A DNA stretch of 50,847 nt from Maritimibacter alkaliphilus HTCC2654 (GTDB lineage: Bacteria > Pseudomonadota > Alphaproteobacteria > Rhodobacterales > Rhodobacteraceae). Within the stretch, counting starts at the first letter, position 1, and every line of letters begins with the position of its first letter. Where the stretch lies: NCBI RefSeq assembly GCF_000152805.1, contig NZ_CH902580.1:1-50847 (forward strand). Direction: 5' to 3'. The notes below the pieces were generated by a model. That model searched no databases. It saw only the letters and a list, made by a program, of their open reading frames with translations, and had not been told where the DNA came from. Both the position numbers and the translations under genes were made by a program. Below are positions 12,260-25,930 of this stretch, one piece after another.

Positions 12260-12299
12260 ACAAACGAACGGTGGCATGTGCTTGGTGTGAACTCACGGT

Positions 12300-13383
12300 G
12301 AAGCGCAACTTCTGATATGTCGTTTTATTCCAGACGGTTCTGGATTTCCATCAGCTTGGCTTTGAAAACTTCCGCCGGTGTTCGGTAATCCAAACACTTG
12401 CGCGGCGTTGAATTGAGGCGGTGGCAAATCGACCTCAAATATCGATTTGTCAGCGCCGTCGGTTCGGTTGAGCGGGGCAGGTACTTACGCAGCCTGTTGT
12501 TCGTGTTTTCGACGGTGCCTTTCTGGTACGGCGCTTGTGGGTCACAGAACCACGCATCCGCACCGATCCCGGCCTTGAGATGCTTCCAGGCTGAGAACTC
12601 GGTGCCACGGTCAAAGGTGACGGATTGGCGCGCATCGGCGGGCAGGGGAGCGAGCCCTTTGATCAGCGCCTCCATGATCGGCTTGGATTGACGATCTTCA
12701 TTGCGCATCACAACTGCATAGCGGCTGACACGTTCGACGAGCGACGTCACGTTGACCTTTCCATGCTCCTTCCTGAACATCATTAGGTCGCACTCCCAGT
12801 GGCCGAACTCGGTGCGCTCTGAGATGCGATCGGGCCTGCGAGAGAGGCTTTGCACATCGAATATGTGGCTCCGGTTGTGCCTGCGGTAACCACGCGGCCG
12901 ACGGCGCCGGCGGTGCTCGGGCAGATGGCGATAGAACTGCTCATCGCGGCCGTCCTTGGAATAGGCGAACCGATAGATCGTCTCATGGCTCACGCGGATC
13001 GGATGGCGCTCCAGCCGCATCCGGCCGGCGATCTGTTCAGGTGACCAGCCAGCCTTCAGGCGATCTTCGATGGTGGCCTTCAGCTCCGGATGCACGACCA
13101 TCTTGCGATGGATCGCGCGGCGCTTCTCGTACATGTCCTGTGCATTCAAAGCGTAGTAGCCGTTCAGCTCGGGCAGTTCGGTATCCGTATACTGGTTCCG
13201 CTTGATATCTCGGTAGATCGTGGAAGGGTCGCGGCCCAATCGATCCGCAATCTCCGAAATAGGCATCTTGGCTTCCAGCCACTTTGCGAGTTTGCGCCGT
13301 TCATCCAGCTTCAGGTGAGAGTAGTGGGTTCCCATTCAACATCCTCCATGCAACTATCTGTATTCGTACAGAATTTGCACTTC
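12300..13383 (-). mobile_element. IS30-family insertion sequence, apparently intact
   Basis: The transposase gene is bracketed by inverted repeats: GAAGCGCAACTTCTG at 12300-12314 and its partner CAGAATTTGCACTTC at 13369-13383 (13 of 15 positions match when inverted). The resulting element of about 1.08 kb is the normal IS30 size. Exact ends and the short target duplication (expected 2-3 bp) were not resolved. It lies immediately 3' of iorB and next to IS6 debris. Confidence 0.8.
12325..13335 (-). CDS. IS30-family transposase
   Basis: 336 aa and full length. N-terminal HTH (residues 5-50: HLKLDERRKLAKWLEAKMPI, IADRLGRDPSTIYRDIKRN), then a second HTH-like part and the DDE core from about 170: D183 in GHWECDLMMF, D242 in VTFDRGTEF and E276 in KGTVENTNNRLRKYLP, followed by the conserved LNSTPRKCLDYRTPAEVF tail. 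All key residues are present and no frame damage is seen, so this copy may be active. It mobilises the surrounding 12300-13383 element. Confidence 0.95.
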   Translation of the reverse strand: MGTHYSHLKLDERRKLAKWLEAKMPISEIADRLGRDPSTIYRDIKRNQYTDTELPELNGYYALNAQDMYEKRRAIHRKMVVHPELKATIEDRLKAGWSPEQIAGRMRLERHPIRVSHETIYRFAYSKDGRDEQFYRHLPEHRRRRRPRGYRRHNRSHIFDVQSLSRRPDRISERTEFGHWECDLMMFRKEHGKVNVTSLVERVSRYAVVMRNEDRQSKPIMEALIKGLAPLPADARQSVTFDRGTEFSAWKHLKAGIGADAWFCDPQAPYQKGTVENTNNRLRKYLPRSTEPTALTNRYLRSICHRLNSTPRKCLDYRTPAEVFKAKLMEIQNRLE

Positions 13384-13540
13384 GTTTGTGAATCCACTTG
13401 GGCAAGCAAGTGCGGCGCATAATGAACATTATGTAACAAATGCCTTTGGATCTTTGTCCCGAAGCGGGCAGGGGCATTGTCAGGTTGATGAAAACCGCTT
13501 TGCCGTGTACCGCCGCCCCATTTTGAATCCTTGTGATCTG

Positions 13541-14035
13541 TCCCGTCTCAAGGGGTTTCGTTTTCCACGCTCGGTCATCGGCTACGCGGTCTGGGCGTAC
13601 ATCGTCTTGCCCTCAGCTTGTGCGACGTTGAGGATCTTCTTGCATCTCGAGAGATCACGGTTTCCCACGGAACAATCCGGGACTGGGTGGAGCGTTTCGG
13701 CGTTCAGTTCGCCGCCAAGGTCAGGCGTCATCGACCGCGCCCGGCGGAAGTGTCATGTCGACGAGGTCGTGGTGCCGATCAAGGGGTGAAAACATTGGCT
13801 GGAGTGCTGTCGATGCCAATGGTGATTTACTTGATATTCTGGTTCAATCCCGTCGGGACAAGACGGCTGCGAGACGCTTCTACAGGACGTAGTTCAAGAC
13901 TTGGGGGCAGCTGGGTGTGATCGGCACCGAAAAGCTACGGTCCTACGGTGCCGCGAAGGCAGTCTTGGAGCCAGCTATCGAGCATCGCCAGCACAAGGGG
14001 TTGGACAATAGAGCCGATGCCTCCCACCTTGCGAC
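13541..14035 (+). pseudogene. IS6-family transposase remnant, N-terminal and central part
   Basis: Successive frames give KGFRFPRSVIGYAVWAY, then CDVEDLLASREITVSHGTIR with DWVERFGVQFAAKVRRHRPR, then KCHVDEVVVPIKG (first DDE aspartate), then WSAVDANGDLLDILVQSRRD (second Asp region), then GTEKLRSYGAAKAVLEPAIE and LDNRADASHL. The family order is preserved but at least three frameshifts and a stop break it, and the normal C-terminus after NRA..SH is missing. The 3' side runs into unrelated sequence and a truncated SDR gene. Confidence 0.85.
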
Positions 14036-14109
14036 CGGCTATGCATGCGATCTGGCGGCCTGAACCTAGCACGCAACCGATTCTTGCGGGCAACAGTAAA
14101 CAGCCTGAC

Positions 14110-14805
14110 AATGCCGCCGATATCGACACCGCAGGCTGCGGCAAGACGGTGGACGAGATGACTGCCGGGGGCAAGGCGCATCTGGTCGCGCTTGACGTGA
14201 CCAGCGCTGAGACCTGCGCCGAAGTGGTGGCGCCGCTCGCTTTGACCTCGGGCAAGCTACATATCCTGATCAACACCGCCGGAATCATGATTGCGCAGCC
14301 AATCGCGACCTGCACGCTGGAGACCTACCAGAAGGAGCAGAAGATCAACTTGGAAAGCGTGTGGATCGGTTGCAAGACGGCGCTTGAATTGTCGACCGAA
14401 ACGGAGGCTGCGGACGGCACCACGTCGATCATCAATCTGTCCTCGACGCTTGGGGTCGTTGGTGAGCGCATGTTCTCGGCCTACACGGCGTCAAAGGGTG
14501 CGGTGCGGCTCATGTCCAAGGCGCTGGCGGTGGAACTTGGTCCGCGCCAGATCCGGGTCAACTCGGTCCATCCGACGCTTGTGAACACAGCGCTCGCCAT
14601 CGGCGCGACTCAGGACCTTGTGGACGGCGGCGTTCCCCTGCCCTACAAGAAAGCCATGATCGACGTGGTGAAAATGCAAGCGCCGCTCGGGCGCTATGCC
14701 GAGCCGCACGATATCGCCAACGCCATCGCGTTCCTCGCCTCGGACGAAAGCAGCTACATCACCAGCACGGAGCTGGTGGTCGATGGCGGGCCGACGGCGA
14801 CCTGA
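14110..14805 (+). pseudogene. Short-chain dehydrogenase lacking its nucleotide-binding N-terminus
   Basis: Homology begins around ADIDTAGCGKTVDEMTAGGK (about 14110) and runs to the family's normal end (SSYITSTELVVDGG). It retains LVALDVTS, NTAG (for NNAG), the catalytic Ser in INLSSTLGVVG and YTASK. The first 40 residues with the TGxxxGIG coenzyme loop are missing and replaced by IS6-derived sequence; the reading frame happens to stay open upstream to 13948, making a hybrid with transposase debris. Without the glycine loop the product should not bind NAD(P). I regard it as a gene decapitated by the IS6 event, although the hybrid frame could still be annotated as a protein. Confidence 0.75.
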
Positions 14806-14814
14806 CCCGAGTTG

Positions 14815-14841
14815 CCCCGGTGCGCCCTTTTCGCACCGGGG
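14815..14841 (+). terminator. Strong hairpin after the truncated SDR gene
   Basis: CCCCGGTGCG (14815-14824) and CGCACCGGGG (14832-14841) form a perfect 10-bp stem around CCCTTTT, 10 nt after the SDR stop. The following bases TCAATAG are not a U-run, so termination may be weak or factor-assisted. Confidence 0.6.
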
Positions 14842-15041
14842 TCAATAGAATCTGACCAGGTTGGGACATCCACCTCACTGATTGCAGCCCCGACATTGGC
14901 GAATGCGCAGGCTTGAACCCTCAGGCGCGTCGCACGGCAGGCGCACCAGCTTGTGGTCAGGGCTTCGCCGCAGACGCATCCGCATTGCAGTTTCAGCTAT
15001 ATCTCCTGCGTCTTGATCAAGTGTTTCTCTATCGTTGATCT

Positions 15042-15057
15042 AATGGTCAGTCCATTT
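15042..15057. promoter_or_regulatory. Putative GntR/FCD operator before the Rieske operon
   Basis: AATGGTCAGTCCATTT contains a TGGT-N3-TCCA core (one change from TGGT-N3-ACCA) with symmetric AATGG...CCATT arms, 15 nt before the first possible start codon. A half-site, CTACCAATG, overlaps that start codon at about 15065-15074. It belongs to the repeated operator set described for this island. Confidence 0.5.
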
Positions 15058-15071
15058 TATATTACCTACCA

Positions 15072-15503
15072 ATGAAGATGCGCGAGCGAGAGATGACGCG
15101 ACCACCACAACCCGTGCCGACGCAGGAAACGCAGCCCTTCTGGGACGCTGCTCGCGACGGTCGCGTGGTGCTCTGGCACTGTAACGCCTGCGGGCGAACC
15201 GCGGGGCCGCTGTCGCCGCGTTGCCCGGACTGCCTGTCCGGCAGCCTCAGCGCGCTGACCTATGAGGGGCGCGTTCTGCTCAAGGGGCGCACGGTTCTGA
15301 CGGTCCCGGCCTATGAGGGGCAGAGCGTTCCCGCCCCAGTCGCGGAATGTGTGATCGAGGACGAGCCGCGCGTGACCCTCATCGCCGCCGACCCCGACGA
15401 CCTGACCCGCGACCTCGCTCCCGGCACGCCCGTCACGCTGGGCTTCGCCGCGAATGGCGACGGGGTGCCGCTTGCCACGATCACCGGCGGGGGCCCGTCA
15501 TGA
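15072..15503 (+). CDS. DUF35 (Zn-ribbon plus OB-fold) acyl-CoA-binding partner protein
   Basis: 143 aa from ATG 15072, or 136 aa from ATG 15093, which has the purine-rich GCGAGAG upstream and fits the family start better. Rubredoxin-like zinc ribbon C37-N-A-C40...C51-P-D-C54, followed by an OB-fold (GRVLLKGRTVLTVPAYEG...). DUF35 proteins bind thiolase-fold proteins and acyl-CoA; established examples are ChsH2 with Ltp2 in steroid side-chain cleavage and IpfE with IpfD in ibuprofen catabolism. It overlaps the thiolase-like gene by ATGA, so the two are very probably made as a complex. First gene of the seven-gene operon. Confidence 0.85.
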   Translation: MKMREREMTRPPQPVPTQETQPFWDAARDGRVVLWHCNACGRTAGPLSPRCPDCLSGSLSALTYEGRVLLKGRTVLTVPAYEGQSVPAPVAECVIEDEPRVTLIAADPDDLTRDLAPGTPVTLGFAANGDGVPLATITGGGPS

Positions 15504-16612
15504 GTGTCGCCATTATCGGCTTTGGTGCGTCCGAACTCGTCAAGTCCAGTCCACGCGGTATCGCGGCCTTCGCGCTCGATGCGGCGGTTTCGGCTCTTGC
15601 GGACGCAAAGCTATCCCGCGACGACATCGACGGTTATGTCGGTGCGCCCTTTGCCACCAATGCAAGCTCACCCCATGCCGAAGGGGGTGACGAAATCTCG
15701 CTCAAGACCGTCGCCGGTCTGATGGGTCTGAAGCTGAGCTGGGGTGCCGACCTCTACCGCCGCTATCCGACAGACATGGTGGCCTCTGCCGCAAATGCCC
15801 TGATCGCCGGAAGCAGCCGTTTCGTTCTGGGCCTGCGCGCCATGTACGCGTTACCCGGCGGCGGGTACGGCACCGGCGCGGCGAACGATGCCTTCGGCGC
15901 GCAGCAGTTCACCCGCCCCTACGGCTTCGACACGCTCGGCGCGCGCTTTGCCAGCCGAAGCTGGGCCTATATGGCCCGCCACGGTCTGACGCGGGACGAC
16001 CTCTTTGCCATCGTCGACCTGTCGCGCCGCAACGCCGCCGACAACCCCGAGGCCCTGTGGCGCGACAAACCGCTCGAGCGCGACGCCTATATGGCCGCCC
16101 GCATGATCGCCGAGCCGCATTGCCTTTACGATTGCGACATGCCTGTCTGCGGCGCTCAGGCCTTTGTCATGTGCCGGGGCGAAGACGTGCCGTCAGGCGC
16201 CGCCCCCGCATGGGTCACGGGGTGGAGCGGCTTTGGCAAGCCCGAGGCGCTCTGGGACATGAGCGGGCGCAGCGCCACCGATCTGACTTCGGCCCAGCTT
16301 TACGACGGCTTCTCCTCGATGGTCTGGGAATGGCTCGACGGCTTCGGCATCACCGAACCCGGCAATGCCGCGGCCTTTATCCGCGACGGCCACGGCGCGC
16401 GCGACGGCAAGCTGCCGATCAACACCTTCGGCGGCGCCCTTGGCGAGGGCCGGATGCACGGCATGGGCCATCTACGCGAAGCCTACCTTCAGGCCACGGG
16501 CCGCGCCGGTGCACGTCAGGTGCGCCCCGGCCCCACCCTCGCCCATGTCGGGCCCTTCGACGATTCCTCATTCGTCCTGCTCGAACCCGACCGCCCGACG
16601 CGGGCGCAATGA
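15500..16612 (+). CDS. Thiolase-fold (SCP-x/lipid-transfer type) protein, non-canonical
   Basis: 370 aa from ATG 15500, which overlaps the DUF35 stop. It starts MSVAIIGFGASELVKSSPRG and has the thiolase-type helix LDAAVSALADAKLSRDDIDG and a C-terminal GGALGEGRMHGMGHLREAY with the His region. There is no Cys at the nucleophile position: the segment ADLYRRYPTDMVASAANALI stands where thiolases have the CA(T/S)G loop. This is expected of SCP-x-like lyases (aldolases or deacylases) rather than Claisen thiolases. With its DUF35 partner it probably cleaves a CoA ester carbon-carbon bond after oxygenation by the Rieske enzyme encoded downstream. Confidence 0.8.
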   Translation: MSVAIIGFGASELVKSSPRGIAAFALDAAVSALADAKLSRDDIDGYVGAPFATNASSPHAEGGDEISLKTVAGLMGLKLSWGADLYRRYPTDMVASAANALIAGSSRFVLGLRAMYALPGGGYGTGAANDAFGAQQFTRPYGFDTLGARFASRSWAYMARHGLTRDDLFAIVDLSRRNAADNPEALWRDKPLERDAYMAARMIAEPHCLYDCDMPVCGAQAFVMCRGEDVPSGAAPAWVTGWSGFGKPEALWDMSGRSATDLTSAQLYDGFSSMVWEWLDGFGITEPGNAAAFIRDGHGARDGKLPINTFGGALGEGRMHGMGHLREAYLQATGRAGARQVRPGPTLAHVGPFDDSSFVLLEPDRPTRAQ

Positions 16613-16625
16613 CAAAGGACTGACG

Positions 16626-16967
16626 ATGAAAGTGCGCGACTATCTGGCCATCCCCTACATCCTCGAAGCTCAGGCGATCGAGGTGAACGGCGAATGGACC
16701 CGCAGGCTTCGCTACCCGGAGCTCGGCGATTTCGAGGCCCGGCACGAAGACGTGGAACAGGCGCTGCTCGAAGTCGAACGCCTCCGCATCAAGGAAATCC
16801 TGCGCAAGCTGCGCGCGGGCGAGAAACCCCCCGTGCCCCGGCCGCCGCTTGAGACGACGGATCAGGGCTGGTGGGCCCGATTTCTGGGCATCGGCGATCT
16901 GGTCGAGGGCGTCATCGACAGCCCGGCCAGCGACCTTGCCGGAACCGAAAAGATTGGGCGCCACTGA
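16626..16967 (+). CDS. Small HicB-like protein of unknown function
   Basis: 113 aa, ATG at 16626, 13 nt after the previous stop with GGACTGACG upstream. Residues 8-70 follow the HicB-type beta-alpha pattern: YILEAQAIEVNGEWTRRLRY, PELGDFEARHEDVEQALLEV, a long helix, then GEKPPVPRPP. No HicA toxin partner is nearby, and the C-terminal 40 residues (QGWWARFLGIGDLVEGVID) are an extra, partly hydrophobic tail. Its place between the thiolase-like protein and the Rieske oxygenase in a coupled operon suggests an accessory subunit rather than an antitoxin. Fold similarity is my reading of the pattern, not a search result. Confidence 0.6.
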   Translation: MKVRDYLAIPYILEAQAIEVNGEWTRRLRYPELGDFEARHEDVEQALLEVERLRIKEILRKLRAGEKPPVPRPPLETTDQGWWARFLGIGDLVEGVIDSPASDLAGTEKIGRH

Positions 16968-17009
16968 GCGGCCCGCACAAGGACATGACTTTTTACAAGG
17001 AGACCCTAC

Positions 17010-18335
17010 ATGCTGTCGCACGAAGATAACGAGACGCTCGTCCGGGTTGGCCCGGGCACCACGATGGGCGACATGATGCGGCTTTACTGGCTGCCCTTCA
17101 TGGCCTCTTCCGACCTCGAAAAAGACGGCCAGCCGCAGACGGTAAAGCTGCTGGACGAAACGTTGATCGTGTTCCGCGACAGCGAGGGGCGCGTCGGCCT
17201 TGTCGATCACATCTGCCCGCACCGCGGTGCACCGCTGGTCTTTGGCCGCAACGAGGACTGCGGCCTGCGCTGCGTCTACCACGGCTGGAAATTCGACGTG
17301 GACGGCAACGTGGCCGACATGCCCGCCGAACCGCCGCGCTCGCGGCTCAAGGATCGGGTTAAGATCAAGTCCTACCCCTGCGTGGAACGGGGTGGCGTCG
17401 TCTGGACCTACATGGGCGACGAACCCGATGAAAGCCGCCCGGCGCTGCCGTCCTTTGAATGGAACATGGTTCCCGAAGAGAACGTCGTGGTGACCTTCCG
17501 CGTGCAGGAATGTAACTGGCTTCAGGCGCTCGAAGGCGAGATCGACTCGGCCCACGCGCCGATCCTGCATGGCCGGATCGACGATGGCGGCTCGATCAAC
17601 CAATGGGTCGCCAAGCGCGACCTGCGCCCCACCTTCGAATGCATGCGGCAGGATTTCGGCATGTCGATCGCGTCGCGCCGGGTGCTGGACGACGACACGC
17701 TCTACTGGCGCGTGAACCAGTTCGTCATGCCCTTCTTCAGCCTCGTCCCGCCGCAATCGAACGAGTTTTACGAGCTGTCGGGCCACGCCTGGGTGCCCAT
17801 CGACGACGAGAACACGCTCTGCATCATGTTCTCCTATCGCCCGGACGAACCGCTGCACCCGAAATCGCGCAAGGTCTTTCTCGATGGCCATAATGGCCGC
17901 GAGACCGGACATCCGAGCCGCGAGGGCTTTGACGATCAGGGCGCGCAGGTGCCGTTCGGCCGCTACGTGAGCAAGTATCGCCGCGAGACCGGATGGCTTT
18001 TCGACAACGAAGCGCAAAAGACAACGTGGTTCTCGGGCCTGCCGGGCCTGTGGGTGCAGGATGCCGCCTGCCAGTCGGGCGTGCTCCGGGTCTATGACCG
18101 CACGCGCGAACATCTGTGCACCTCGGACACGGGCATCGCCATGACCCGGCGGATGCTTCTGGAAACCGCGCATGCCTTCCGCGACAGCGGCAAGAAACCC
18201 GACCGTTTCGATGACCCCGACCTCTATCTCGTGCGCGCCGTGTCGCTGAAGCTGCCAAAGGATCTGCCTTGGGCCGAAGCGGGCAAAGCGCCGATGACCG
18301 CGAAAGTCGGCGAAGGGCTTGGCTACGAGCTATGA
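17010..18335 (+). CDS. Rieske non-haem iron oxygenase, phthalate-dioxygenase type
   Basis: 441 aa, start ATG 17010 after AAGGAGA. Rieske centre C69-P-H71-R-G and C88-V-Y-H91-G-W; catalytic iron site in EGEIDSAHAPILH with bridging D179 and ligands H182 and H187. The order and length (Rieske 25-125, catalytic domain 150-430) match the single-component alpha oxygenases of the phthalate 4,5-dioxygenase group, which work as alpha-only oligomers with an FMN/2Fe-2S reductase. No beta-subunit gene is present. The reductase at 20775 is its expected partner. Substrate unknown; it shares an operon with CoA-transferases, so a CoA thioester or the free acid is equally possible. Confidence 0.93.
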   Translation: MLSHEDNETLVRVGPGTTMGDMMRLYWLPFMASSDLEKDGQPQTVKLLDETLIVFRDSEGRVGLVDHICPHRGAPLVFGRNEDCGLRCVYHGWKFDVDGNVADMPAEPPRSRLKDRVKIKSYPCVERGGVVWTYMGDEPDESRPALPSFEWNMVPEENVVVTFRVQECNWLQALEGEIDSAHAPILHGRIDDGGSINQWVAKRDLRPTFECMRQDFGMSIASRRVLDDDTLYWRVNQFVMPFFSLVPPQSNEFYELSGHAWVPIDDENTLCIMFSYRPDEPLHPKSRKVFLDGHNGRETGHPSREGFDDQGAQVPFGRYVSKYRRETGWLFDNEAQKTTWFSGLPGLWVQDAACQSGVLRVYDRTREHLCTSDTGIAMTRRMLLETAHAFRDSGKKPDRFDDPDLYLVRAVSLKLPKDLPWAEAGKAPMTAKVGEGLGYEL

Positions 18336-19558
18336 CGGGGTCGAAACAAGCATTGAACGGCGTCCGCGTGCTGGAATTGTCCGCACTTGCGGGCGCCGTG
18401 GCGGGGCGCGTGCTCGCCGACCTGGGGGCCGAGGTGATCAAGGTCGAACCGGAGGGGGGCGAGCCCTTCCGCCGGTCCGTCCCGACGGTCCCGACCGCCT
18501 ATGGCGAGGAAAGCGGCGCGTGGCTTGCCTTTAACCACGGCAAGAAAAGCGTGACCCTCGATATCGACAGCGACGAGGGTCTCGCCACCTTTGCGCGCCT
18601 ATGCAAGACGGCCGACATCGTCGTGACTGACTGGGAGCGTCTGACGCTCGCGCAGATGGACCGGCTCGGGGCGGCCGCGCGGGACGCGAACCCAGCGCTG
18701 GTCTTTGCCGAGATCCTGCCCTTCGGGCGCGGTGCGCCCTATCAGGACTATGCCGCCACCGACACCACGCTTCAGGCATTGGGTGGGCACCTTTACCTCA
18801 ATGGCGACGTGGACCGCCCGCCGGTGCGCATCTCGCTCCCCGTGGGCCTGATCCAAGGCGGGGCCGAGGCCGCGTCGGCGGCGCTCATGGCCTATCACCA
18901 CAGCCTCAAGACCGGCGAGGGCCAGCGCGTCGATGTCTCGGTGCAGGAGTGTATCGTCTGGACCCTGCTCAATTCGACGATGGCGTGGCAGATCCTCGGC
19001 CTCAACGAAATGCGCGGCGGCGCGATCCGCAAGGAGCGGGCGAACCGCTTCTTCACGCGCCTCGTGTGGGAAACGAAGGATGGCTACATCTTCTTCGGCC
19101 CCGTCGGCGGCGGCGGCGGTGCGGCGCGCATCAAGTCCTATGAGGCCCTCGTCAAATGGATGAACGAAGACGGCTTCGACGATCCGATCCTGACCAAAAA
19201 CGACTGGAACGGCGACGGCCAGTTCTTCATCTCGCAAGAGGACTATGACGCGGTCACCGCCGTGATCATGTCGTTCATTAAGGCCAAGACGACCGAGGAG
19301 CTGATGGAGCGTGCCGTCCGCGAGCGTATCCTGCTTGCCCCGATCTCGTCGGTGGCTGGTGTATTCGAGAACCGCCAGTTCCGCGCCCGCGGGCTGTTTC
19401 GCAAACTGGACGACCCCGCGCGGGGCCTGTCGGTCGAATTGCCGTCGCATTGGGCGAACCTGTCCGAAACACCGCTGGCGGACCCGCGCCCGGCTCCGGC
19501 CCCCGGGGCCGATACCGACGCGATCTTCGCCAAGGAAACAGAAGGAAGCCTGACATGA
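18332..19558 (+). CDS. Class III CoA-transferase subunit lacking the catalytic Asp
   Basis: 408 aa CaiB/BaiF protein: LNGVRVLELSALAGAVAGRV, LADLGAEVIKVEPEGGEPF, and the interlocked C-terminal domain with TGEGQRVDVSVQE. In active family members the acceptor aspartate lies in a V(A)D(L) context after PxRxxxP; here the line reads PPVRISLPVGLIQGGAEAAS, so residue 173 is Leu and no Asp is available nearby. The next gene, overlapping by ATGA, encodes a second subunit with the Asp. A heteromeric enzyme with one catalytic and one structural subunit, comparable to BbsE/BbsF of benzylsuccinate metabolism, is the simplest reading. Start overlaps the oxygenase stop (ATGA). Confidence 0.85.
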   Translation: MTGSKQALNGVRVLELSALAGAVAGRVLADLGAEVIKVEPEGGEPFRRSVPTVPTAYGEESGAWLAFNHGKKSVTLDIDSDEGLATFARLCKTADIVVTDWERLTLAQMDRLGAAARDANPALVFAEILPFGRGAPYQDYAATDTTLQALGGHLYLNGDVDRPPVRISLPVGLIQGGAEAASAALMAYHHSLKTGEGQRVDVSVQECIVWTLLNSTMAWQILGLNEMRGGAIRKERANRFFTRLVWETKDGYIFFGPVGGGGGAARIKSYEALVKWMNEDGFDDPILTKNDWNGDGQFFISQEDYDAVTAVIMSFIKAKTTEELMERAVRERILLAPISSVAGVFENRQFRARGLFRKLDDPARGLSVELPSHWANLSETPLADPRPAPAPGADTDAIFAKETEGSLT

Positions 19559-20778
19559 GCCTCGACAGCGCATCCGCACTCGACTGCAAAACCGGGATCT
19601 TCGCAGGTCTCAAGGTGGCCGATTTCACATGGGCCGCCGCCGGTCCCATCGCGACCAAGCAGCTCTCCGACAACGGCGCGACGGTGGTCAAGATCGAAAG
19701 CTTCAAGCACCCGGACTCGATCCGCCTTGGCGGGCCGTTCATCGACGACAAACCGGGCATCAACCGCTCCGGCTTTTTCGCGGATTTCCATTCCTCCAAG
19801 CTCGGCATCGCCGTCGATATGAGCAACCCGGACGCGATCGAGATCATCCGCCCGCTCATCGAATGGGCCGATGTGGTCGCGGAAAGCTTCCGCCCCGGCG
19901 TGATGAAGAAATGGGGGCTGGATTACGAAAGCCTCAAGGCGATCAATCCCTCCATCGTCATGCTCTCCTCGTCGCTTTACGGCGCCGACGGCCCGTGGGC
20001 GCGCCATCCCGGCTACGGCGCACAGGGTCAGGCGCTCGCCGGCGTCCATGCCATGACCGGCTGGCCCGACCGGCCCCCCGCGATGCCCAAGGGCGCTTAT
20101 TCCGACAGCGTCTCGCCCCGCTATGCGCTGAGCGCCCTGCTCGCCGCGCTCATCCACCGCGAAAAGACCGGCGAGGGCCAGCATGTCGAACTGAGTCAGG
20201 TCGAGGCGACGACCCAGCTTCTGGCCCCGGAACTCCTGATCTATCAGGCCACCGGCGAGGAGATCACGCGACAGGGCAGCCGCAAGGCAGGCTCGATTCT
20301 CCACGGCATCTTTCCCTGCGAGGGCGAGGAACGCTGGATCGCGATCGAGGCCGTGACCGAAGCGCAGTGGACCGCGTTCACAGCCCTTCTGGGCGACACC
20401 GACGCGCTCGCCACCGCGCGCGACCAAGGCCCCGATGCGCTCGAGGCCGCCGTGGCCAATGCGACCGAGTCTTGGGATGCCTTCGCGCTCATGGCCGCCT
20501 GCCGCGATGCGGGTGTGCCGGCGGGCGTGGCCAACAAGGCGTCCGACCTTCTGGACGACGACGTCTTTGCCGCACGCGACCATTTCTGGCCGCTCCATCA
20601 CGAAGAGATGGGGACCCTGAAATACAACGGCCCCGCCTACCGCTTCGAACGCACGCCAAGCGACCTGCGCTTTGCTTCGCCCCGTTTGGGCGAACACACG
20701 GACGCAGTCATGTCCGGGATCCTGGGCTATGACGACGCCCAGATCGCCGCCTTCCGCGAAAGGGGACTTCTGGGATGA
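19555..20778 (+). CDS. Class III CoA-transferase, catalytic subunit
   Basis: 407 aa CaiB/BaiF protein: FAGLKVADFTWAAAGPIATK, NGATVVKIESFKHPD, VVAESFRPGVMKKWGLD, then GAYSDSVSPRYALSALLAAL with D184 as the expected acceptor aspartate, and TGEGQHVELSQVE. The enzyme moves CoA from a donor such as succinyl-CoA to a carboxylate via a glutaryl-type aspartyl-CoA intermediate. It overlaps both neighbours by ATGA, so it is made with the Asp-less partner upstream and the reductase downstream. Likely job: activate the acid handled by the Rieske oxygenase, or recycle CoA from its product. Confidence 0.88.
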   Translation: MSLDSASALDCKTGIFAGLKVADFTWAAAGPIATKQLSDNGATVVKIESFKHPDSIRLGGPFIDDKPGINRSGFFADFHSSKLGIAVDMSNPDAIEIIRPLIEWADVVAESFRPGVMKKWGLDYESLKAINPSIVMLSSSLYGADGPWARHPGYGAQGQALAGVHAMTGWPDRPPAMPKGAYSDSVSPRYALSALLAALIHREKTGEGQHVELSQVEATTQLLAPELLIYQATGEEITRQGSRKAGSILHGIFPCEGEERWIAIEAVTEAQWTAFTALLGDTDALATARDQGPDALEAAVANATESWDAFALMAACRDAGVPAGVANKASDLLDDDVFAARDHFWPLHHEEMGTLKYNGPAYRFERTPSDLRFASPRLGEHTDAVMSGILGYDDAQIAAFRERGLLG

Positions 20779-21743
20779 GCAAGGGAGCAGACATTCCGGT
20801 CCGCGTGCGCCAGATGCGTTACGAGGCAGACACGATCCTGTCCGTCGAGTTCGAAACGCTCGACGGTCGCGACCTGCCGGTGGCCGCGCCCGGCTCTCAC
20901 ATCGACGTGGCACTGGGCAAGGACTTTCGCCGGAGCTACAGCCTGACGCGCGAGATCACGGGCGGGCCCTCCTGCACCGTGGCGATCCACCGCGACCCAA
21001 AATCAAAGGGCGGCTCGGCCTACGTGCATGAGACGCTTCGCGTGGGCGACAAGACGGTCATCTCGCGGCCCAAGAACAACTTCCCCCTCGATGAGAACGC
21101 AGACCTGTCGGTGCTGATCGCTGGTGGGATCGGGGTCACGCCGGTCCTGTGCATGATCCGTCGTCTGGTGGCGACCGGCAAGGCGTGGAAACTGCACTAC
21201 GCCGCCCGCAGCCGCTCCGCCGCCGCCTTCCGCGACGAGCTTGACGCGCTGGAACAGGCGAGCGACGGCAAGGGCAAGTTGCACTACCACCTCGACGACG
21301 AACAGAACGGGGCGCTGGTGGATATCGGGGGCATCCTGACCGCGAATCCCACGGCGCACTTCTATTGCTGCGGGCCCGAGGCGATGCTGGCCGCCTATGA
21401 AAGGGCCGCCCGCGGCGTGCCGCGCGATCAGGTCCATGTCGAATATTTTTCGTCGAGCGAAGAAGTCGCCCGTGACGGCGGGTTCGAAGTGGTGCTCGAC
21501 CGCTCAGGCAAGACCATCGTGGTCGAACCCGGCCAGACCATCCTCGATGCGCTGATCGCGAATGGCGTCCATGTGCCGTTTTCCTGTGCCGAGGGCACCT
21601 GCGGGACCTGTGAAACCGATGTGATCGAAGGGCGACCCGATCACCGCGACATCATCCTGACGGACGAGGAACGCGCCGAAAGCAAGACGATGATGATCTG
21701 TTGCTCAGGCTCGAAAAGCGCGCGTCTGGTGCTGGACATCTAG
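20775..21743 (+). CDS. Phthalate-dioxygenase-type reductase (FMN, NADH, 2Fe-2S)
   Basis: 322 aa with domains in the order typical of class IA oxygenase reductases: FMN-binding barrel with RRSYSL (52-57), NAD(P)-binding domain with GGIGVTP (117-123) and CCGPEAML, and a C-terminal plant-type ferredoxin with C271, C276, C279 and C309. Passes electrons from NADH through FMN and 2Fe-2S to the Rieske centre of the oxygenase at 17010. ATGA overlap with the CoA-transferase. Last gene of the operon; a hairpin overlaps its stop. Confidence 0.93.
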   Translation: MSKGADIPVRVRQMRYEADTILSVEFETLDGRDLPVAAPGSHIDVALGKDFRRSYSLTREITGGPSCTVAIHRDPKSKGGSAYVHETLRVGDKTVISRPKNNFPLDENADLSVLIAGGIGVTPVLCMIRRLVATGKAWKLHYAARSRSAAAFRDELDALEQASDGKGKLHYHLDDEQNGALVDIGGILTANPTAHFYCCGPEAMLAAYERAARGVPRDQVHVEYFSSSEEVARDGGFEVVLDRSGKTIVVEPGQTILDALIANGVHVPFSCAEGTCGTCETDVIEGRPDHRDIILTDEERAESKTMMICCSGSKSARLVLDI

Positions 21744-21752
21744 CACCAGACG
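21723..21752. terminator. Hairpin overlapping the reductase stop, between convergent operons
   Basis: CGTCTGGTGCT (21723-21733) pairs perfectly with AGCACCAGACG (21742-21752), an 11-bp stem with an 8-nt loop that contains most of the stop region (TAG at 21741-21743). The convergent SDR gene ends 10 nt further on, so it could serve both strands. No U-run is present. Confidence 0.5.
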
Positions 21753-21761
21753 ACTCCGGCC

Positions 21762-22520
21762 TCAGCCGCCCCCGTGCAGGGACAGTATCGTGCCGTTGGT
21801 ATAGCCCGAGCGCGGCGAGGCGAGAAAGGCGACCGCATCGGCCACCTCCTGCGGATCGGCGGCCCGACCATAGGGCAGGCCTCGCGTCAGCTCGTCCGCG
21901 CGCCCCTCGTCGCCCAACTCCGCCGCCGCGCGGGATTTCAGGAAGACCTGCATCCGCTCGGTCGCGACCAGGCCGGGGTTCAGCCCCACGATCCGCCCGC
22001 CCATGCTGTTGAATTGCTTGGCATAGGCGCGGGTAAAGGCCATGAGCGCGGCATTGCCCACCGCACCGCAGATGTAATCCGCGCTCAAAGCCTCGCCCCC
22101 TGCGCCGATCACGTTGACGATCACCCCGCCGCGCTCCGCGATGCGCGGGGCAAGGGCGCGGGTCATGTTGATGTAGCCAAAGACCTTGAGGTCCCAGGCC
22201 GCACGCCAGCGGTCCTCGTCGATACTGGCAAGATCACCGGGGGGAATGGCCCCCGCGTTGTTCACGAGGATGTCGACGGGAGTCTCTCGCGCCGCCACCC
22301 GTTCGACACCCTCGCGGGTGGCAAGGTCGGCAGCCACCACATCGGGCCTGAGACCGGTGTCCCCTTCGATCTGCGCGGCCGCGTCGGCGAGCCTGTCGCA
22401 ATCCCGCGCGACGAGCGTGACCTGCACGCCCTCCTGCGCCAGCGTCCGGGCCGTGGCCAGCCCGATGCCCTTGCTCGCGCCGGTCACGAGCGCATTCAAT
22501 CCACTGAGGTTCAGGTCCAT
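21762..22520 (-). CDS. SDR-family protein with substituted catalytic residues
   Basis: 252 aa from ATG 22520, which follows AAAGGATCG; a longer start at 22553 is possible but less likely. TGASKGIG (13-20) and NNAG (87-90) are intact. At the active site the line reads VNVIGAGG instead of the usual Ser context, and Y149 is followed by ICGA, so the Lys of YxxxK is Ala (A153). I recall an SDR subgroup with YIxGxxGNAALMAFTRA that shares this feature, so it is probably not a random mutation. The reaction may not be an ordinary alcohol oxidation. Last gene of the minus-strand operon from 26662. Confidence 0.82.
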   Translation of the reverse strand: MDLNLSGLNALVTGASKGIGLATARTLAQEGVQVTLVARDCDRLADAAAQIEGDTGLRPDVVAADLATREGVERVAARETPVDILVNNAGAIPPGDLASIDEDRWRAAWDLKVFGYINMTRALAPRIAERGGVIVNVIGAGGEALSADYICGAVGNAALMAFTRAYAKQFNSMGGRIVGLNPGLVATERMQVFLKSRAAAELGDEGRADELTRGLPYGRAADPQEVADAVAFLASPRSGYTNGTILSLHGGG

Positions 22521-22572
22521 CGGCGATCCTTTCGGTGTCATGTCGCGGGTCAAGGTGCGCCCACCGCAGATC

Positions 22573-23580
22573 CTACGTGAGCGGCGGGTTCATCGACAGC
22601 ACCGTTTCCACCGGCAGGCGGGGCGAGGCGCAGACGGTCAGGTCATCGGGCAGCGTGCCAAAGCCCACCAGCACGATCACCGACTGCGCATCGTCCAGCC
22701 CAAGCGTCGCGCGCAGCCCCTTGTCGGTACCCACATCGACGGACCAGTTCAGCATGCAGGTGCCCAGCCCCTCGGCATGAAGCGCATGCACAAAACTCAT
22801 CGCGAATAGCCCGCCGTCGATCCAAGCCTGATAGCGTTCGCCGGGATGTTCCCAGTGCCGCAGGTCGCTGGTGATGACCGCGATCCCGCCCAGTTCATCT
22901 CCGAACGTGCGGTTCCCGGCCTGATGGACGCGCACCCGGTCGATCAGGTCACGCTCGGTCCAGACGCGCAGGTGACAGGTTTGGCGGTTGCAACTGGACG
23001 GCGCATGTTGCGCGGCACGCGCGGCGCGGCGGATCTTGTCCTCGGGCACCGGATCGGGGCCGAAGCGGCGCACCGAATGGCGCGATCCGGCAAAGGCGAG
23101 ATAGTCGAAATCCGTGGCCTTGGCGATCCCGGCCCGGTCCAGATGGCTGACGCCGGCAGCCTCAGACGCCCCCGGCGCGGCGCGGTCGGCAAGGTAACGC
23201 GCCACCTCCTCCGGCACCTCACCCGCGTTGAACGCGGCCCAGACGCGCAGAGTGCTGTCCCCGACCGCCCCGGCGTCGCTCACGTGCCCGGCGTCGCGCA
23301 GGTCCCGCGCCAGCCGCGTGGCCCGCGCAAAGCCGAAACCCGTCCGCGCCTCGCGCAGGGCCATGCCGTATTCCAAGAAATGCGCATCTGCCAGCATCCG
23401 CGCGTCCCGGTTTTCGCCGGACCGGGCGCGGTGCAGCCAGGCATGCCGCCGAAACCGCCATGCGTCGTAAAGGACACCGCGCCAGAACCGGGCCTCGACC
23501 TTCAGCGCCTCCCCGAGCCGCGCGACGGGGCTGGTGGTGGCGGAAACGGCCCGCCCGGCCTCGGGTTTCTGCACGGTCAT
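22573..23580 (-). CDS. Nitroreductase-family flavoprotein with N-terminal extension
   Basis: 335 aa. The nitroreductase core starts near residue 164 with SRHSVRRFGPDPVPEDKI, then AQHAPSSCNRQTCHLRVW (FMN phosphate region), GGLFAMSFVHALHAEGLGTC and the GFGTLPDD end. The first 160 residues are Arg/Ala rich and do not match the core fold; similar extensions are found in a subset of nitroreductase-like proteins. ATGA overlap with the CoA-transferase upstream puts it in the GntR-led operon. Possible roles are reduction of an enone, quinone or dehydro-CoA intermediate; the substrate cannot be told. Confidence 0.82.
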   Translation of the reverse strand: MTVQKPEAGRAVSATTSPVARLGEALKVEARFWRGVLYDAWRFRRHAWLHRARSGENRDARMLADAHFLEYGMALREARTGFGFARATRLARDLRDAGHVSDAGAVGDSTLRVWAAFNAGEVPEEVARYLADRAAPGASEAAGVSHLDRAGIAKATDFDYLAFAGSRHSVRRFGPDPVPEDKIRRAARAAQHAPSSCNRQTCHLRVWTERDLIDRVRVHQAGNRTFGDELGGIAVITSDLRHWEHPGERYQAWIDGGLFAMSFVHALHAEGLGTCMLNWSVDVGTDKGLRATLGLDDAQSVIVLVGFGTLPDDLTVCASPRLPVETVLSMNPPLT

Positions 23581-24713
23581 TCGCCCTCGTTCAGTTCTGC
23601 GCGAAGGGGGGCGAGAAATTCGGCGTCGCCCTCGCCCAGTTCTGGAATGTCCGGCCGCACCCGGGCATCGGTGTCGGACATGCGAAACGGCGGGTTCGGG
23701 ACCTGAAACGCGCCCGCCGCGTCCCGGACCGTGCCCATCACGCCGCGTTCCTGCGTTGCGGGATCGGCCATGACCTCGGCCACGTCGCGGTAGCGGGAAC
23801 AGGGCACCCCGGCGGCGAGCAGCAGACGCTCACAGGTCTCGGCGGGCTTGTCCTGCGCCCAGAGCTCGACATAGCCCATGAGATCGTCCCAGTTCGCCTC
23901 GCGCCCCGAGGCCGTGGCAAAACGAGGGTCCGCGCCCCAGTCCGGCCCACCAAAGAGCGCCAGCATGCCCGCGAAATTCTTGTCCGACAGCGGCACGACC
24001 ATGATGAACCCGTCCGCAGCCCGGACCGGCGTGTAGAGATGCCGGGCGCGGATTTGCGGGAACTGGGCCTCCTGACATTCATAGACCATCATCGACATCA
24101 GGCTGTCCAAAAGCGCGACATCGACCAACTGTCCCCGCCCGGTGTGTTCGCGGGCCAAAAGCGCGGTCTGGATCGCCCCCCAGGCATAAACGCCCGCCAG
24201 AATGTCGGCATAGAACATGCCTGTCGGCGCGGGCCGGTCAAGCTCGGGCTGATAGGACATGAGCGCCATGTCCAGCCCGCCGGTCGCGTGGATCATCGGC
24301 GCATAGGCCGGGCGCGACGCGGCAACGCCCTCCTGCCCGAACCCCGAGATCGCGCAATAGACGAGCCTTGGATTGCGCGCCGACAGCGTGTCCCAGTCGA
24401 GCCCCAGACGCGCCATCACGCCGGGGCGGAAGTTTTCGACCACAACATCGGCACCGTCGATGAGCCGCTTAGCATCCTGCCGCCCCGCCTCGGTGCGCAG
24501 GTCCAGAACCACGCTCCGCTTGCCCGCGTTCAGGGTGCCGAAATAGGTGGATTGTCCGTCACGCAGCGGGGGACGCCGTCGCATGGCGTCCCCCTCCGTT
24601 GGTTCGATCTTGATCACTTCGGCGCCGATATCGGCCATGAGGCGGGTGCAGAACGGCCCCGCCATCACCTGCGAGAAATCGACGACCCGGATCGGTTTCG
24701 GCCCGTCTGTCAT
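23577..24713 (-). CDS. Class III CoA-transferase (CaiB/BaiF family)
   Basis: 378 aa. Begins IRVVDFSQVMAGPFCTRLMA, IGAEVIKIEPTEGD, ENFRPGVMARLGLDW, then TGMFYADILAGVYAWGA with catalytic D170, and TGRGQLVDVALLDS. It is a clear paralogue of the product of the gene at 32663; both share FYADILA and the EAQFP segment about 45 residues later, which suggests related substrates. Start overlaps the dehydrogenase stop (TGATG) and its own stop overlaps the nitroreductase start. Expected to exchange CoA between the acid that the flanking acyl-CoA dehydrogenase acts on and a donor thioester. Confidence 0.92.
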   Translation of the reverse strand: MTDGPKPIRVVDFSQVMAGPFCTRLMADIGAEVIKIEPTEGDAMRRRPPLRDGQSTYFGTLNAGKRSVVLDLRTEAGRQDAKRLIDGADVVVENFRPGVMARLGLDWDTLSARNPRLVYCAISGFGQEGVAASRPAYAPMIHATGGLDMALMSYQPELDRPAPTGMFYADILAGVYAWGAIQTALLAREHTGRGQLVDVALLDSLMSMMVYECQEAQFPQIRARHLYTPVRAADGFIMVVPLSDKNFAGMLALFGGPDWGADPRFATASGREANWDDLMGYVELWAQDKPAETCERLLLAAGVPCSRYRDVAEVMADPATQERGVMGTVRDAAGAFQVPNPPFRMSDTDARVRPDIPELGEGDAEFLAPLRAELNEGE

Positions 24714-25870
24714 CAGCCCTTGAGCATCGCGCGCGCGATGATCAGGCGCTGGATCTGGTTCGTGCCTTCGTAGATCTGGCAGACCTTGGCGTCGCGCATG
24801 TAGCGCTCAACCGGGTGATCCTGCAGATAGCCCGCGCCGCCAAAGACCTGAACCGCGTCGGTCGTGACCTTCATCGCCATGTCCGAGGCAAAGGTCTTGA
24901 TCATCGACGAATACATCGGAACCTGCGGGTGGGTCGGGTCGCGGTCGATAAAGGCGGCAACCTTGTAAAGCAGCGCCCGCGCCGCCTCGATCTGGATCGC
25001 CATGTCGGCCAGCATCGCCTGCACGAGTTGGAAGTTGCCAATCGGCTGCCCGAACTGTTCGCGCTCCTTGGCATAGGCCATAGCGGCATCCAGCGCGCCC
25101 TGTGCGATCCCCACGGAAGCCGCGCCAACGGTCGGACGGTTCAGGTTGAGCACGCCCATCGCATTCTTGAACCCCTGCCCTTCTTCACCGACGAGGTTCT
25201 CGGCCGGCACGCGCACGTTTTCAAAGAACAGGTCGCAGTTCTTGATGCCGCGCAGACCCATCTTCTTGGGGCTCCCGCCGATCTTCACGCCGGGGCTGTC
25301 CATCGGAACGATGAAGGACGAGATACCGTCATGGCCCTTGCCCTCAGAGGTGCGGGCGAACAGCAGGATGTATTTCGCCTGATCCGCCTTGGTGATGAAC
25401 ACCTTCTGGCCGTTGATGACGTAATCGTCGCCGTCGCGTTTGGCGGTCGTCTTGATGCCGGAGACGTCGGACCCGGTCTGCGGCTCGGTCAGACCAATGC
25501 AGGTCAGCGTGCGCCCTTCGGCAATCTCGGGCAGATACTTCTGACGCTGCGCGTCGGTGCCGTAATGCGTGAGCGGCAGCGCCATCGCGATCGAGGTCGC
25601 TCCGACAAGGTGCGACACGGCGAACGAGGCCCGCGAGACCTCTTCCTTCGCAATACACGCCATGGTCAGCGTGCCGCCCGGCCCGCCGTATTCCTCGGGC
25701 ACCATGATCTGGATCAGCCCAAGGTCCCCGAAGATGGGGACGAGCGAGTGGGGCATGTCGTCTTCCTGATCGATCTTAGCCGCAATCGGCGCGACATCTT
25801 TCTCGACCATCCGGCGGATGGTGTCGCGAAACATGATCAGGTCTTCATCGTATTCGGTTGTGTCGAGCAT
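24713..25870 (-). CDS. Acyl-CoA dehydrogenase
   Basis: 385 aa from ATG 25870, which has GGAGGACC 5 nt upstream; a further upstream in-frame start would run through the operator region and is rejected. Normal homotetrameric family layout: helical N-domain, ITKADQ middle beta domain, C-domain. Signature LTEPQTGSDVSG (FAD/substrate loop, 127-138), catalytic E368 in IYEGTNQIQR, and AREREQFGQPIGNFQLVQ-type segment near 268-284. Oxidises an acyl-CoA to the 2-enoyl-CoA and hands electrons to ETF, whose alpha subunit is encoded at the right edge of the window. Preceded by GntR gene and an operator. Confidence 0.95.
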   Translation of the reverse strand: MLDTTEYDEDLIMFRDTIRRMVEKDVAPIAAKIDQEDDMPHSLVPIFGDLGLIQIMVPEEYGGPGGTLTMACIAKEEVSRASFAVSHLVGATSIAMALPLTHYGTDAQRQKYLPEIAEGRTLTCIGLTEPQTGSDVSGIKTTAKRDGDDYVINGQKVFITKADQAKYILLFARTSEGKGHDGISSFIVPMDSPGVKIGGSPKKMGLRGIKNCDLFFENVRVPAENLVGEEGQGFKNAMGVLNLNRPTVGAASVGIAQGALDAAMAYAKEREQFGQPIGNFQLVQAMLADMAIQIEAARALLYKVAAFIDRDPTHPQVPMYSSMIKTFASDMAMKVTTDAVQVFGGAGYLQDHPVERYMRDAKVCQIYEGTNQIQRLIIARAMLKG

Positions 25871-25918: not shown

Positions 25919-25930
25919 AACTGTCAATCT

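Follow-up and report, generated by a model that had tools for sequence, protein, structure and literature searches.

What do seven tightly packed genes of Maritimibacter alkaliphilus HTCC2654 accomplish together, and do they belong together at all? In the window, i.e. the whole stretch of 50,847 nucleotides that was analysed, seven open reading frames between 15072 and 21743 are joined by four ATGA overlaps (at 15500, 18332, 19555 and 20775) and by gaps of 13 and 42 nt, just as a first-pass annotation of this DNA, which described seven genes linked by ATGA overlaps or gaps of at most 42 nt, had stated. The operon looks like a so far unstudied pathway in which an organic acid is joined to coenzyme A, its ring is oxidised and a side chain is cut off. 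Its features are the following:

15035..15063, + strand: match to a sigma-70-like promoter, directly before the operon; weak evidence (single match within 12200-22700, where 1.9 are expected by chance)
15072..15503, + strand: DUF35/ChsH2-type small subunit with zinc-ribbon Cys 37, 40, 51 and 54, joined to the next gene by an ATGA overlap; the alternative start at 15093 may be the true one
15500..16612, + strand: thiolase-fold protein, predicted retro-aldolase and relative of Ltp2, with Y268 in a YDGF motif and R318 replacing Ltp2 Tyr344
16626..16967, + strand: HicB-like protein of 113 amino acids, directly upstream of the Rieske gene, with flanking gaps of 13 and 42 nt
17010..18335, + strand: alpha-only Rieske oxygenase of the phthalate family, with a LigXa_C domain; nearest solved chain 7fhr
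18332..19558, + strand: class III CoA-transferase, first subunit, without the presumed catalytic Asp
19555..20778, + strand: class III CoA-transferase, second subunit, with the presumed catalytic Asp184; best match 9fn0 chain B
20775..21743, + strand: reductase of the phthalate-dioxygenase-reductase type, flavin/NAD part plus C-terminal 2Fe-2S

The Rieske protein carries the Pfam domains Rieske (1e-21) and LigXa_C (3e-23), the latter named after a demethylase, and its C-x-H...C-x2-H and ExxxDxxHxxxxH (2-His-1-carboxylate) motifs are intact, which places it among the alpha-only oxygenases of the phthalate family. The reductase combines NAD_binding_1 with a C-terminal Fer2 domain (5e-16), and the earlier assignment of a phthalate-type, alpha-only oxygenase with its own reductase holds. 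Both CoA-transferase subunits match CoA_transf_3 (3e-74 and 1e-96) and are encoded side by side, in agreement with the two-subunit class III enzyme proposed before. The aspartate which we take to be catalytic is present in the second subunit in 9 of 9 aligned sequences and missing from the first, again in 9 of 9; adjacent class III subunits with this residue in only one of them constitute the pattern that we assume for heteromeric enzymes of the BbsEF type. The second subunit is well related to the succinyl-CoA:benzylsuccinate CoA-transferase BbsEF (9fn0 chain B, 4.5e-77), while the relation of the first is distant (4.6e-33, ranked behind 4ed9). Unlike the BbsEF context, the operon encodes an oxygenase that depends on O2, and a benzylsuccinate beta-oxidation set was not seen among its genes.

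The thiolase-like protein (Thiolase_C_1, 4e-21) finds its best PDB match in TcLtp2 (6ok1_A, E 3e-31), and the DUF35 protein matches zf-ChsH2 (4e-6), its presumed OB-fold half being unmatched. The pair, previously likened to the SCP-x/DUF35 pair of ibuprofen catabolism, is predicted to cleave a beta-hydroxyacyl-CoA, and its thiolase-like member is nearest to the retro-aldolase Ltp2. With the steroid side-chain aldolase Ltp2-ChsH2(DUF35) it shares the thiolase fold (judged by sequence), the adjacent DUF35 gene and the catalytic Tyr of the YDxF motif; in contrast, the relation is distant at the E value given, and the operon has an oxygenase and no hydratase. The base tyrosine of Ltp2 (YDHF motif) is kept as Y268, which like the YDGF and GEGR motifs is invariant in 8 of 8 aligned sequences, whereas the second catalytic tyrosine (Ltp2 Tyr344) is replaced by Arg318, invariant in the same 8 of 8, and Gly stands at the position of Ltp2 His296. 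These two replacements mean that catalysis cannot match that of Ltp2 in detail. According to the available text of PMC12329534, CtSal is also without a Tyr344 equivalent and carries Gln.

The seven-gene operon is a conserved unit, beyond chance. Its full order, the co-occurrence for which the first-pass annotation had suggested a search, was found again in 5 of the 79 loci of the genome scan (L047, L048, L049, L050 and L099), which represent five further genomes, and six of the seven genes are present in L051 and L145. Among near relatives of the Rieske gene (at least 55% identity), 31 of the 47 fully flanked loci, i.e. those with 5 kb on both sides of the Rieske gene, have genes for a thiolase-like protein, DUF35 and a class III CoA-transferase (CaiB) no more than 8 kb away, compared to 0 of 26 for distant Rieske genes (35/56 and 0/38 regardless of flank). 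The Fisher test of near versus distant co-occurrence gives 6e-9, with loci that are not independent and with profiles built from the same loci that were later counted. Five duplicates among the 99 loci (L033, L035, L147, L148 and L149, taken as equal to L067, L075, L053, L069 and L092) were removed, and the window itself, L151-L154, L161 and L162 were excluded; dependent loci were retained, namely L104 and L113, which overlap on one contig, sets of loci that come from the same MAG or strain, and about 14 loci of the Bradyrhizobium type. The complete set is lacking in 16 of the 47 fully flanked near-relative loci, and in the marine Rhodospirillaceae MAG loci L036, L037, L075, L076 and L078 the Rieske gene is present and thiolase and DUF35 are absent. 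Whether the Rieske/reductase and DUF35/thiolase pairs occur independently, a point on which the original proposal hinged, is answered mostly, though not entirely, in favour of that proposal: linkage in the 31 loci, incomplete sets in the 16.

In a Rieske tree made by a quick method, with 8 of the 38 distant loci as outgroup and some long branches, the window-type genes form one clade (8 rows, support 99). A Bradyrhizobium clade (11 of 15 tree rows) and a Burkholderiales clade (19 of 24) cover these functions as well, using a single CoA-transferase and a different thiolase-like protein. The CoA-transferase type and the thiolase-like type each switch twice on the tree, L074 being a hybrid, and this exchange of CoA modules for non-orthologous ones beside the same Rieske clade indicates that the functions stay together. 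The seven-gene system is a conserved unit and at the same time one form of a wider cluster. The Bradyrhizobium and Burkholderiales clusters (e.g. Cupriavidus metallidurans CH34 and Variovorax paradoxus VAI-C), with the makeup Rieske-reductase-CoAT-thiolase-DUF35-(KstD, racemase), share with the window the functions and the Rieske clade (55-68% identity); they differ in the single CoA-transferase and, in L063, in a thiolase-like protein which keeps both Ltp2 tyrosines. The HicB-like gene is present in the Bradyrhizobium clusters and absent from the Burkholderiales ones. The literature searched yielded no description of these clusters and no system of the operon's exact composition, as had been claimed for the latter. 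With the own genome counted, some match to the Rieske protein occurs in 40 of 385 genomes of the class at 1e-60, against 2 of 198 of the family at 1e-120 and 4 of 398 of the phylum at 1e-145. In such even samples the near clade is thus rare and scattered, yet it recurs from marine Rhodobacterales to Bradyrhizobium and Burkholderiales.

Genes around the operon that bear on its substrate, or recur with it, are:

22573..23580, - strand: nitroreductase-family protein, convergent; also in L047, L048, L049 and L099
23577..24713, - strand: third CaiB-type CoA-transferase; recurs as a neighbour in L047, L048, L050 and L099
24713..25927, - strand: acyl-CoA dehydrogenase; 85% identity to the copies in L047, L048 and L099
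25931..26755, - strand: GntR/FCD regulator; recurs in L047-L051, L099 and L145
31496..32614, + strand: alpha-methylacyl-CoA racemase relative, ATG at 31499; 51% to the racemase flanking the operon in L047

Our guess is that the racemase relative, on the same contig and 13 kb from the Rieske gene, belongs to the system. Racemases at least 45% identical to the window copy accompany 15 of the 56 near loci and none of the 38 distant ones (Fisher 3e-4), this threshold replacing discarded profile counts, as the racemase profile cross-matches CoA-transferases. The racemase relatives match the enzyme deposited as 2-methylacyl-CoA racemase / 2-arylpropionyl-CoA epimerase. Within the fetched stretches, 11 of 56 near-relative loci contain BVMO genes (L036, L051, L069, L082 and L145, of which L036 and L082 are without thiolase or DUF35) or KstD-like genes (L060, L084, L087, L088, L089 and L094), the latter being found additionally in L151, L152, L154 and L162. 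Neither the window nor the remaining contig up to 104999 yielded a relative of KstD or BVMO, and the surroundings of the operon in L047-L050 and L099 likewise yielded none. The SDR gene at 21762-22553 was rejected as part of the system: with cut-offs of 1e-30 and half the length, L060 (38%) was the only one of the 99 related loci to match.

From gene content, family relationships, conservation and active-site residues we infer, with a probability of about one half, that the operon would be a module for taking a side chain off a ring compound, either an acetate chain or, with greater likelihood, one of the propionate type (alpha-methyl). The acyl-CoA would be formed by the heteromeric class III CoA-transferase, the alpha-methyl configuration would be set by the racemase encoded elsewhere on the contig, and the Rieske enzyme with its own reductase would hydroxylate the ring carbon in beta position to the thioester, a step that may precede or follow CoA transfer. 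The thiolase-fold/DUF35 pair may then split the tertiary beta-hydroxyacyl-CoA in a retro-aldol reaction, which would release propionyl-CoA (or acetyl-CoA) and leave a ring ketone (or phenol). In some relatives the ketone would pass to a further enzyme, a BVMO in some Alphaproteobacteria and a KstD-like dehydrogenase in Burkholderiales. The racemase, BVMO and KstD-like neighbours suggest that the acid carries an alpha-methyl group and that a ring ketone is formed. An alicyclic substrate then has at least the same likelihood as an aromatic one, which modifies the initial guess of an aromatic or cyclic acid.

The likeness to ibuprofen catabolism seen in the first-pass annotation (CoA thioester, Rieske oxygenation, cleavage by a thiolase-like/DUF35 pair) is supported. 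In ipf (ipfABDEFHI) a CoA thioester is likewise oxygenated by a Rieske enzyme before retro-aldol release of propionyl-CoA by such a pair, which is shared in kind, by family rather than by comparison with the IpfD/IpfE sequences. It is conceivable, if somewhat doubtful, that the likeness extends to the substrate, so that the Rieske enzyme would dihydroxylate the ring of an arylacetyl- or 2-arylpropionyl-CoA and the thiolase-like/DUF35 pair would free acetyl- or propionyl-CoA to leave a catechol, the chemical functions being the same as in ipf, where the retro-aldolase yields propionyl-CoA and 4-isobutylcatechol (available text of PMC9195938). The epimerase match of the racemase relatives agrees with this, as do the aromatic-ring FAD hydroxylases and FAH-like genes adjoining the Noviherbaspirillum and Pigmentiphaga relatives and the gentisate-dioxygenase-like gene beside those of Noviherbaspirillum, which points to an aromatic product. 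However, according to the available text of PMC11347016 the ipf oxygenase consists of alpha and beta subunits, and the pathway includes a separate ferredoxin as well as a CoA ligase; the operon differs in each respect: no beta-subunit gene lies between 15072 and 21743, a single PDR-type reductase is present and no separate ferredoxin, class III CoA-transferases take the place of the ligase, and the HicB-like protein is extra. An AMP-binding protein is encoded at 47379-48953, 26 kb from the operon. No catechol dioxygenase was found among the selection of window ORFs scanned with Pfam, and the KstD-like and BVMO neighbours of the relatives favour a ring ketone.

That the Rieske, reductase and HicB-like genes and the CoA genes serve separate reactions (e.g. 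O-demethylation or phthalate-like oxygenation) and are merely co-regulated is improbable: the near Rieske loci without thiolase/DUF35 and the name of the LigXa_C domain would fit, but both the co-occurrence (31/47 near, 0/26 distant) and the replacement of the CoA modules by non-orthologous ones beside one Rieske clade argue for a shared pathway. The side-chain reading itself is countered by the position of the racemase outside the operon, 13 kb away in the window, by the incomplete sets (16/47), the Rhodospirillaceae MAG loci and the lack of a KstD or BVMO gene in the window, and by the absence of the HicB-like gene from 31 of 56 near-relative loci, including all 24 Burkholderiales-clade tree rows. 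Auxin (indole-3-acetate) degradation of the iad type, in which isatinate would be the substrate of the indolepyruvate-oxidoreductase pair encoded upstream (8562-12259), is very unlikely and was dropped. The window reductase is close to 7ylr_A, which we take to be IadC, but the Rieske protein is not IadD-like, matching 7yls_B, which we take to be IadD, at 4e-7 only, and the beta subunit is absent. Moreover, no oxidoreductase homologue was found in the fetched stretches of related loci, and an IS30 element and a transposase-like remnant intervene, where the GC content steps from about 0.61 to 0.66. The upstream indolepyruvate-oxidoreductase and TRAP genes probably lie outside the system. It is true that iad loci contain indolepyruvate-oxidoreductase genes (available text of PMC9613470), and that the thiolase-like IadG of Variovorax is proposed to act after IadCDE (available text of PMC12633357). 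Isoflavone (ifc) degradation, prompted by the Bradyrhizobium and Variovorax hosts, offered no link, as the available text of PMC11069340 describes A-ring cleavage for ifc and does not mention 'Rieske'.

The HicB-like assignment is weakly founded: the protein of the window matches no Pfam family at 1e-3, and PF15919 matches 7 of 21 aligned sequences (the window protein and 20 of the 25 homologues found), weakly, with a best E of 0.016. Its predicted model (pLDDT 92.5) retrieved four HicB chains and TTHA0281 as the first five matches of a fold search, at E values of just 0.1 to 0.4; these include the HicB antitoxins 6g1n and 6u0i, ranked first, and 2dsy (E 0.1-0.3). Despite these matches, next to no weight can be given to a toxin-antitoxin antitoxin residing in the operon by chance: no hicA toxin gene is adjacent inside the operon, whose gaps of 13 and 42 nt are too small to hold one, the gene sits directly upstream of a window-kind Rieske gene in 7 of 7 sampled genomes carrying the protein, and the L063 protein reaches 15.3 bits with the HicB profile, below the cut-off of 27. 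The HicB-like protein had no matches among plasmid records. We guess that the protein is an accessory or regulatory partner of the oxygenase. A bolder version is speculative and rather unlikely, namely that a Rieske oxygenase has acquired a HicB-fold protein as its dedicated partner (e.g. holding the CoA substrate or docking to the retro-aldolase) in a new oxygenative route stripping alpha-methyl side chains from alicyclic (terpenoid-like) acids, with an aldolase that uses a Tyr/Arg active site.

If the side-chain model is true, one operon would couple oxygenation and retro-aldol cleavage for a class of acids. The structure 7fhr, whose deposited name goes no further than putative phthalate dioxygenase, would thereby receive a role, as would proteins that carry the annotation acetyl-CoA acetyltransferase, and the HicB-like protein would gain a testable job outside toxin-antitoxin systems.

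The seven genes that the first-pass annotation had placed at 15072-21743 were all found as stated, and their tight coupling is equally real, with an ATGA overlap at four junctions and gaps of 13 and 42 nt at the remaining two. Domain assignments were checked against Pfam and NCBIfam.

15072-15503 (start perhaps 15093), DUF35 protein
15500-16612, thiolase-like protein
16626-16967, HicB-like protein
17010-18335, Rieske oxygenase alpha subunit
18332-19558, CoA-transferase, first subunit
19555-20778, CoA-transferase, second subunit
20775-21743, reductase

The Rieske protein retains both its Rieske cluster motif and its 2-His-1-carboxylate motif. In DUF35 all four zinc-ribbon cysteines are in place, as are the 2Fe-2S cysteines in the reductase. 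The surroundings are as follows.

5703-8546, TRAP transporter
8562-12259, indolepyruvate oxidoreductase pair
12325-13335, minus strand, IS30-type transposase
about 13390-13850, frameshifted stretch that reads like the remnant of an IS6-type transposase
22573-26755, convergent to the operon, nitroreductase, CoA-transferase, acyl-CoA dehydrogenase and GntR genes

The transposase and the remnant stand between the TRAP and oxidoreductase genes and the operon, the GC content, about 0.61 before the transposase junction, is about 0.66 after it and again about 0.61 at 25-32 kb, and in related loci the stretches fetched showed no oxidoreductase homologue. The TRAP transporter and the oxidoreductase pair are thus probably outside the system. 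An SDR frame (13948-14805) matches its family profile only from position 26, its N-terminal part being unlike the family; it may be a gene that was damaged at this junction. The convergent set also adjoins the operon in three Rieske loci of other genomes (L047, L048 and L099; L-numbers denote such loci, each a fetched stretch), and partly in L049, L050, L051 and L145. Elsewhere in the window, a second CoA-based cluster (38644-50829) contains two adjacent acyl-CoA dehydrogenases, a thiolase-like protein with a YDSF motif accompanied by a DUF35 zinc ribbon (42204-42311), an SDR, an enoyl-CoA hydratase, an AMP-ligase, a MaoC hydratase, ETF alpha and a TRAP-type permease with an NMT1-like solute-binding protein. 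A 279-aa protein (913-1752) matches the VHL beta domain over the curated cut-off (1.5e-6), which we regard as unusual in a bacterium. Further relatives of the Rieske protein (28-30% identity) and reductase (44%) occur at about 10096-14000 of L126 (G000:C2:45000-64999), on the same 105,848-base contig; RepC has no match on that contig, while three other contigs match.

Searching named genomes for relatives of the Rieske protein yielded at least 79 loci (best 80 matches). Among the matches listed, the full seven-gene order recurs in five of those loci, in Rhodobacterales bacterium HKCCE2091, Chachezhania sediminis, Ciceribacter naphthalenivorans, Actibacterium naphthalenivorans and Pararhodobacter sp. 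CCB-MM2. Six of the seven genes are present in Nitratireductor alexandrii (L051) and in L145, a genome from the window's own family, the reductase having no match in either fetched stretch. On a quick tree the window-type Rieske genes form a single clade (8 rows, support 99). Most rows of the Bradyrhizobium clade (11 of 15) and of the Burkholderiales clade (19 of 24) differ in having only one CoA-transferase and a thiolase-like protein of another type, as a rule also with DUF35; annotated examples of this form come from a Delftia, a Burkholderia and a Variovorax plasmid. In SAR202 and other Chloroflexota (L102-L106), two to four Rieske relatives belonging to this family occur per fetched stretch, without the CoA genes.

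Linkage was assessed by counting the genes up to 8 kb from the Rieske gene in 94 loci, after removal of 5 duplicates from 99. The thiolase-like, DUF35 and class III CoA-transferase (CaiB) genes are all nearby in 35 of the 56 near loci (Rieske identity to the window protein at least 55%), whereas this is true of none of the 38 distant loci (below 55%). Where 5 kb or more was available to either side of the Rieske gene, the trio is linked in 31/47 near loci versus 0/26 distant ones. The contrast is clear, even though its Fisher value (6e-9) overstates the certainty, as these same loci supplied the profiles and Bradyrhizobium has more than its share of them. The possibility, raised in the first-pass annotation, that the Rieske/reductase and DUF35/thiolase pairs occur independently is thereby opposed in the main. 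The exceptions carry weight: in MAG loci of marine Rhodospirillaceae, among them L036, L075 and L076, none of the three genes lies near the Rieske gene, so that the linkage is strong but not strict. Among rows having one, the CoA-transferase type changes twice on the Rieske tree, as does the thiolase-like type. L074 is mixed, with the CoA-transferase pair of one form and the thiolase-like protein of the other. Non-identical proteins of equal function therefore accompany the same oxygenase, which argues for the oxygenase and CoA genes forming one pathway.

Benzylsuccinate CoA-transferase is related to both CoA-transferase subunits: its chain B to the second (4.5e-77) and its chain A to the first (4.6e-33, ranked behind 4ed9 at 1.6e-34). 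The presumed catalytic Asp, at a position we assume from the family, is present in the second subunit and missing from the first (9/9 aligned sequences each). The closest solved relative of the thiolase-like protein is the steroid side-chain aldolase TcLtp2 (3e-31), whose base Tyr294 aligns with Y268, His296 with Gly and Tyr344 with Arg318. The YDGF and GEGR[ML]HG motifs are unchanged in all eight aligned sequences, and in the other thiolase-like type (L063 sequence) both tyrosines are present, in YENF and ECYMHG. The only cysteines of the window protein are 208, 212, 217 and 225, none of which occupies what we take to be the thiolase nucleophile position. Given the TcLtp2 relation, these residues and the precedent of CtSal, in which the second Tyr is likewise replaced, the protein is predicted to be a retro-aldolase with an unusual acid, and not a thiolase; the catalytic roles of the Ltp2 residues and the CtSal replacement follow PMC12329534.

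The HicB-like protein is the strangest part of the operon. Its alignment (window protein plus 20 of 25 homologues found) holds 14 invariant columns, and its structure model, a confident one (pLDDT 92.5), has HicB antitoxins as top fold matches, yet at E 0.1 or worse. It occurs in 2 of 385 genomes of the class sample and 6 of 149 in the family of genome G361, together seven different genomes, and in each of these the next gene downstream is a near-relative Rieske gene. It is present in 25/56 near loci and in 3/38 distant ones, all Alicyclobacillus relatives (L096, L097, L100). In these three it follows the Rieske start at a distance of about 2.5 kb, and L097 has a gene for a zinc-type alcohol dehydrogenase in between. 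As it is missing from the whole Burkholderiales clade (0/24 rows), the chemistry of the oxygenase pathway can run without it. Our guess is that it assists the oxygenase as an accessory partner. Within the literature searched, most subscription journals being outside its coverage, no single paper combines HicB, Rieske, oxygenase and operon.

Neighbouring genes hint at the substrate. An alpha-methylacyl-CoA racemase gene flanks the operon in L047 (best PDB relative 1x74, 4e-96), L049, L050, L051 and L099, and the window holds a relative with 51% identity to the L047 copy:

31496-32614, racemase relative, with GHDINY and DLGGG, which we take to be racemase signatures

Racemases at least 45% identical to the window copy occur in 15/56 near loci and 0/38 distant ones, which suggests an alpha-methyl acid as substrate. 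Five of the 56 near loci (L036, L051, L069, L082, L145) have, in the stretch fetched, a BVMO relative that is 37-56% identical to the L051 copy, in L051 adjoining a hormone-sensitive-lipase-type esterase and in L036 and L082 without a thiolase-like gene. KstD-like dehydrogenases occur in six (L060, L084, L087, L088, L089, L094) and additionally in L151, L152, L154 and L162; they match, with scores below the curated cut-offs, NCBIfam PRK12843, relatives of 3-ketosteroid-delta-1-dehydrogenase and 4-oxocyclohex-2-ene-1-carboxylate dehydrogenase. Neither enzyme was found in the window, in the remainder of the contig to 104999, or next to the operons of L047-L050 and L099. Both enzyme types suggest a ring ketone as product, which fits, since retro-aldol cleavage would leave one. 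Evidence to the contrary comes from the two Noviherbaspirillum loci, whose gentisate-dioxygenase-like, FAH and aromatic FAD hydroxylase genes make an aromatic product a possibility.

Identity with the auxin degradation system (iad) was rejected, the best IadD-type match of the Rieske protein being 4e-7. The resemblance in logic to ibuprofen degradation (ipf) proposed earlier holds; the retro-aldolase step of ipf yields propionyl-CoA, according to PMC9195938. However, the oxygenase subunits and the CoA activation differ, so that the operon does not belong to ipf. In the literature searched, with the same limits of coverage, no description of this cluster was seen, in line with the first-pass annotation, which knew of no described system of this composition. 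This is a real, conserved catabolic operon, undescribed as far as searched, and its proposed mechanism is moderately supported; what is new is a variant of a known plan, oxygenation followed by retro-aldol deacylation.
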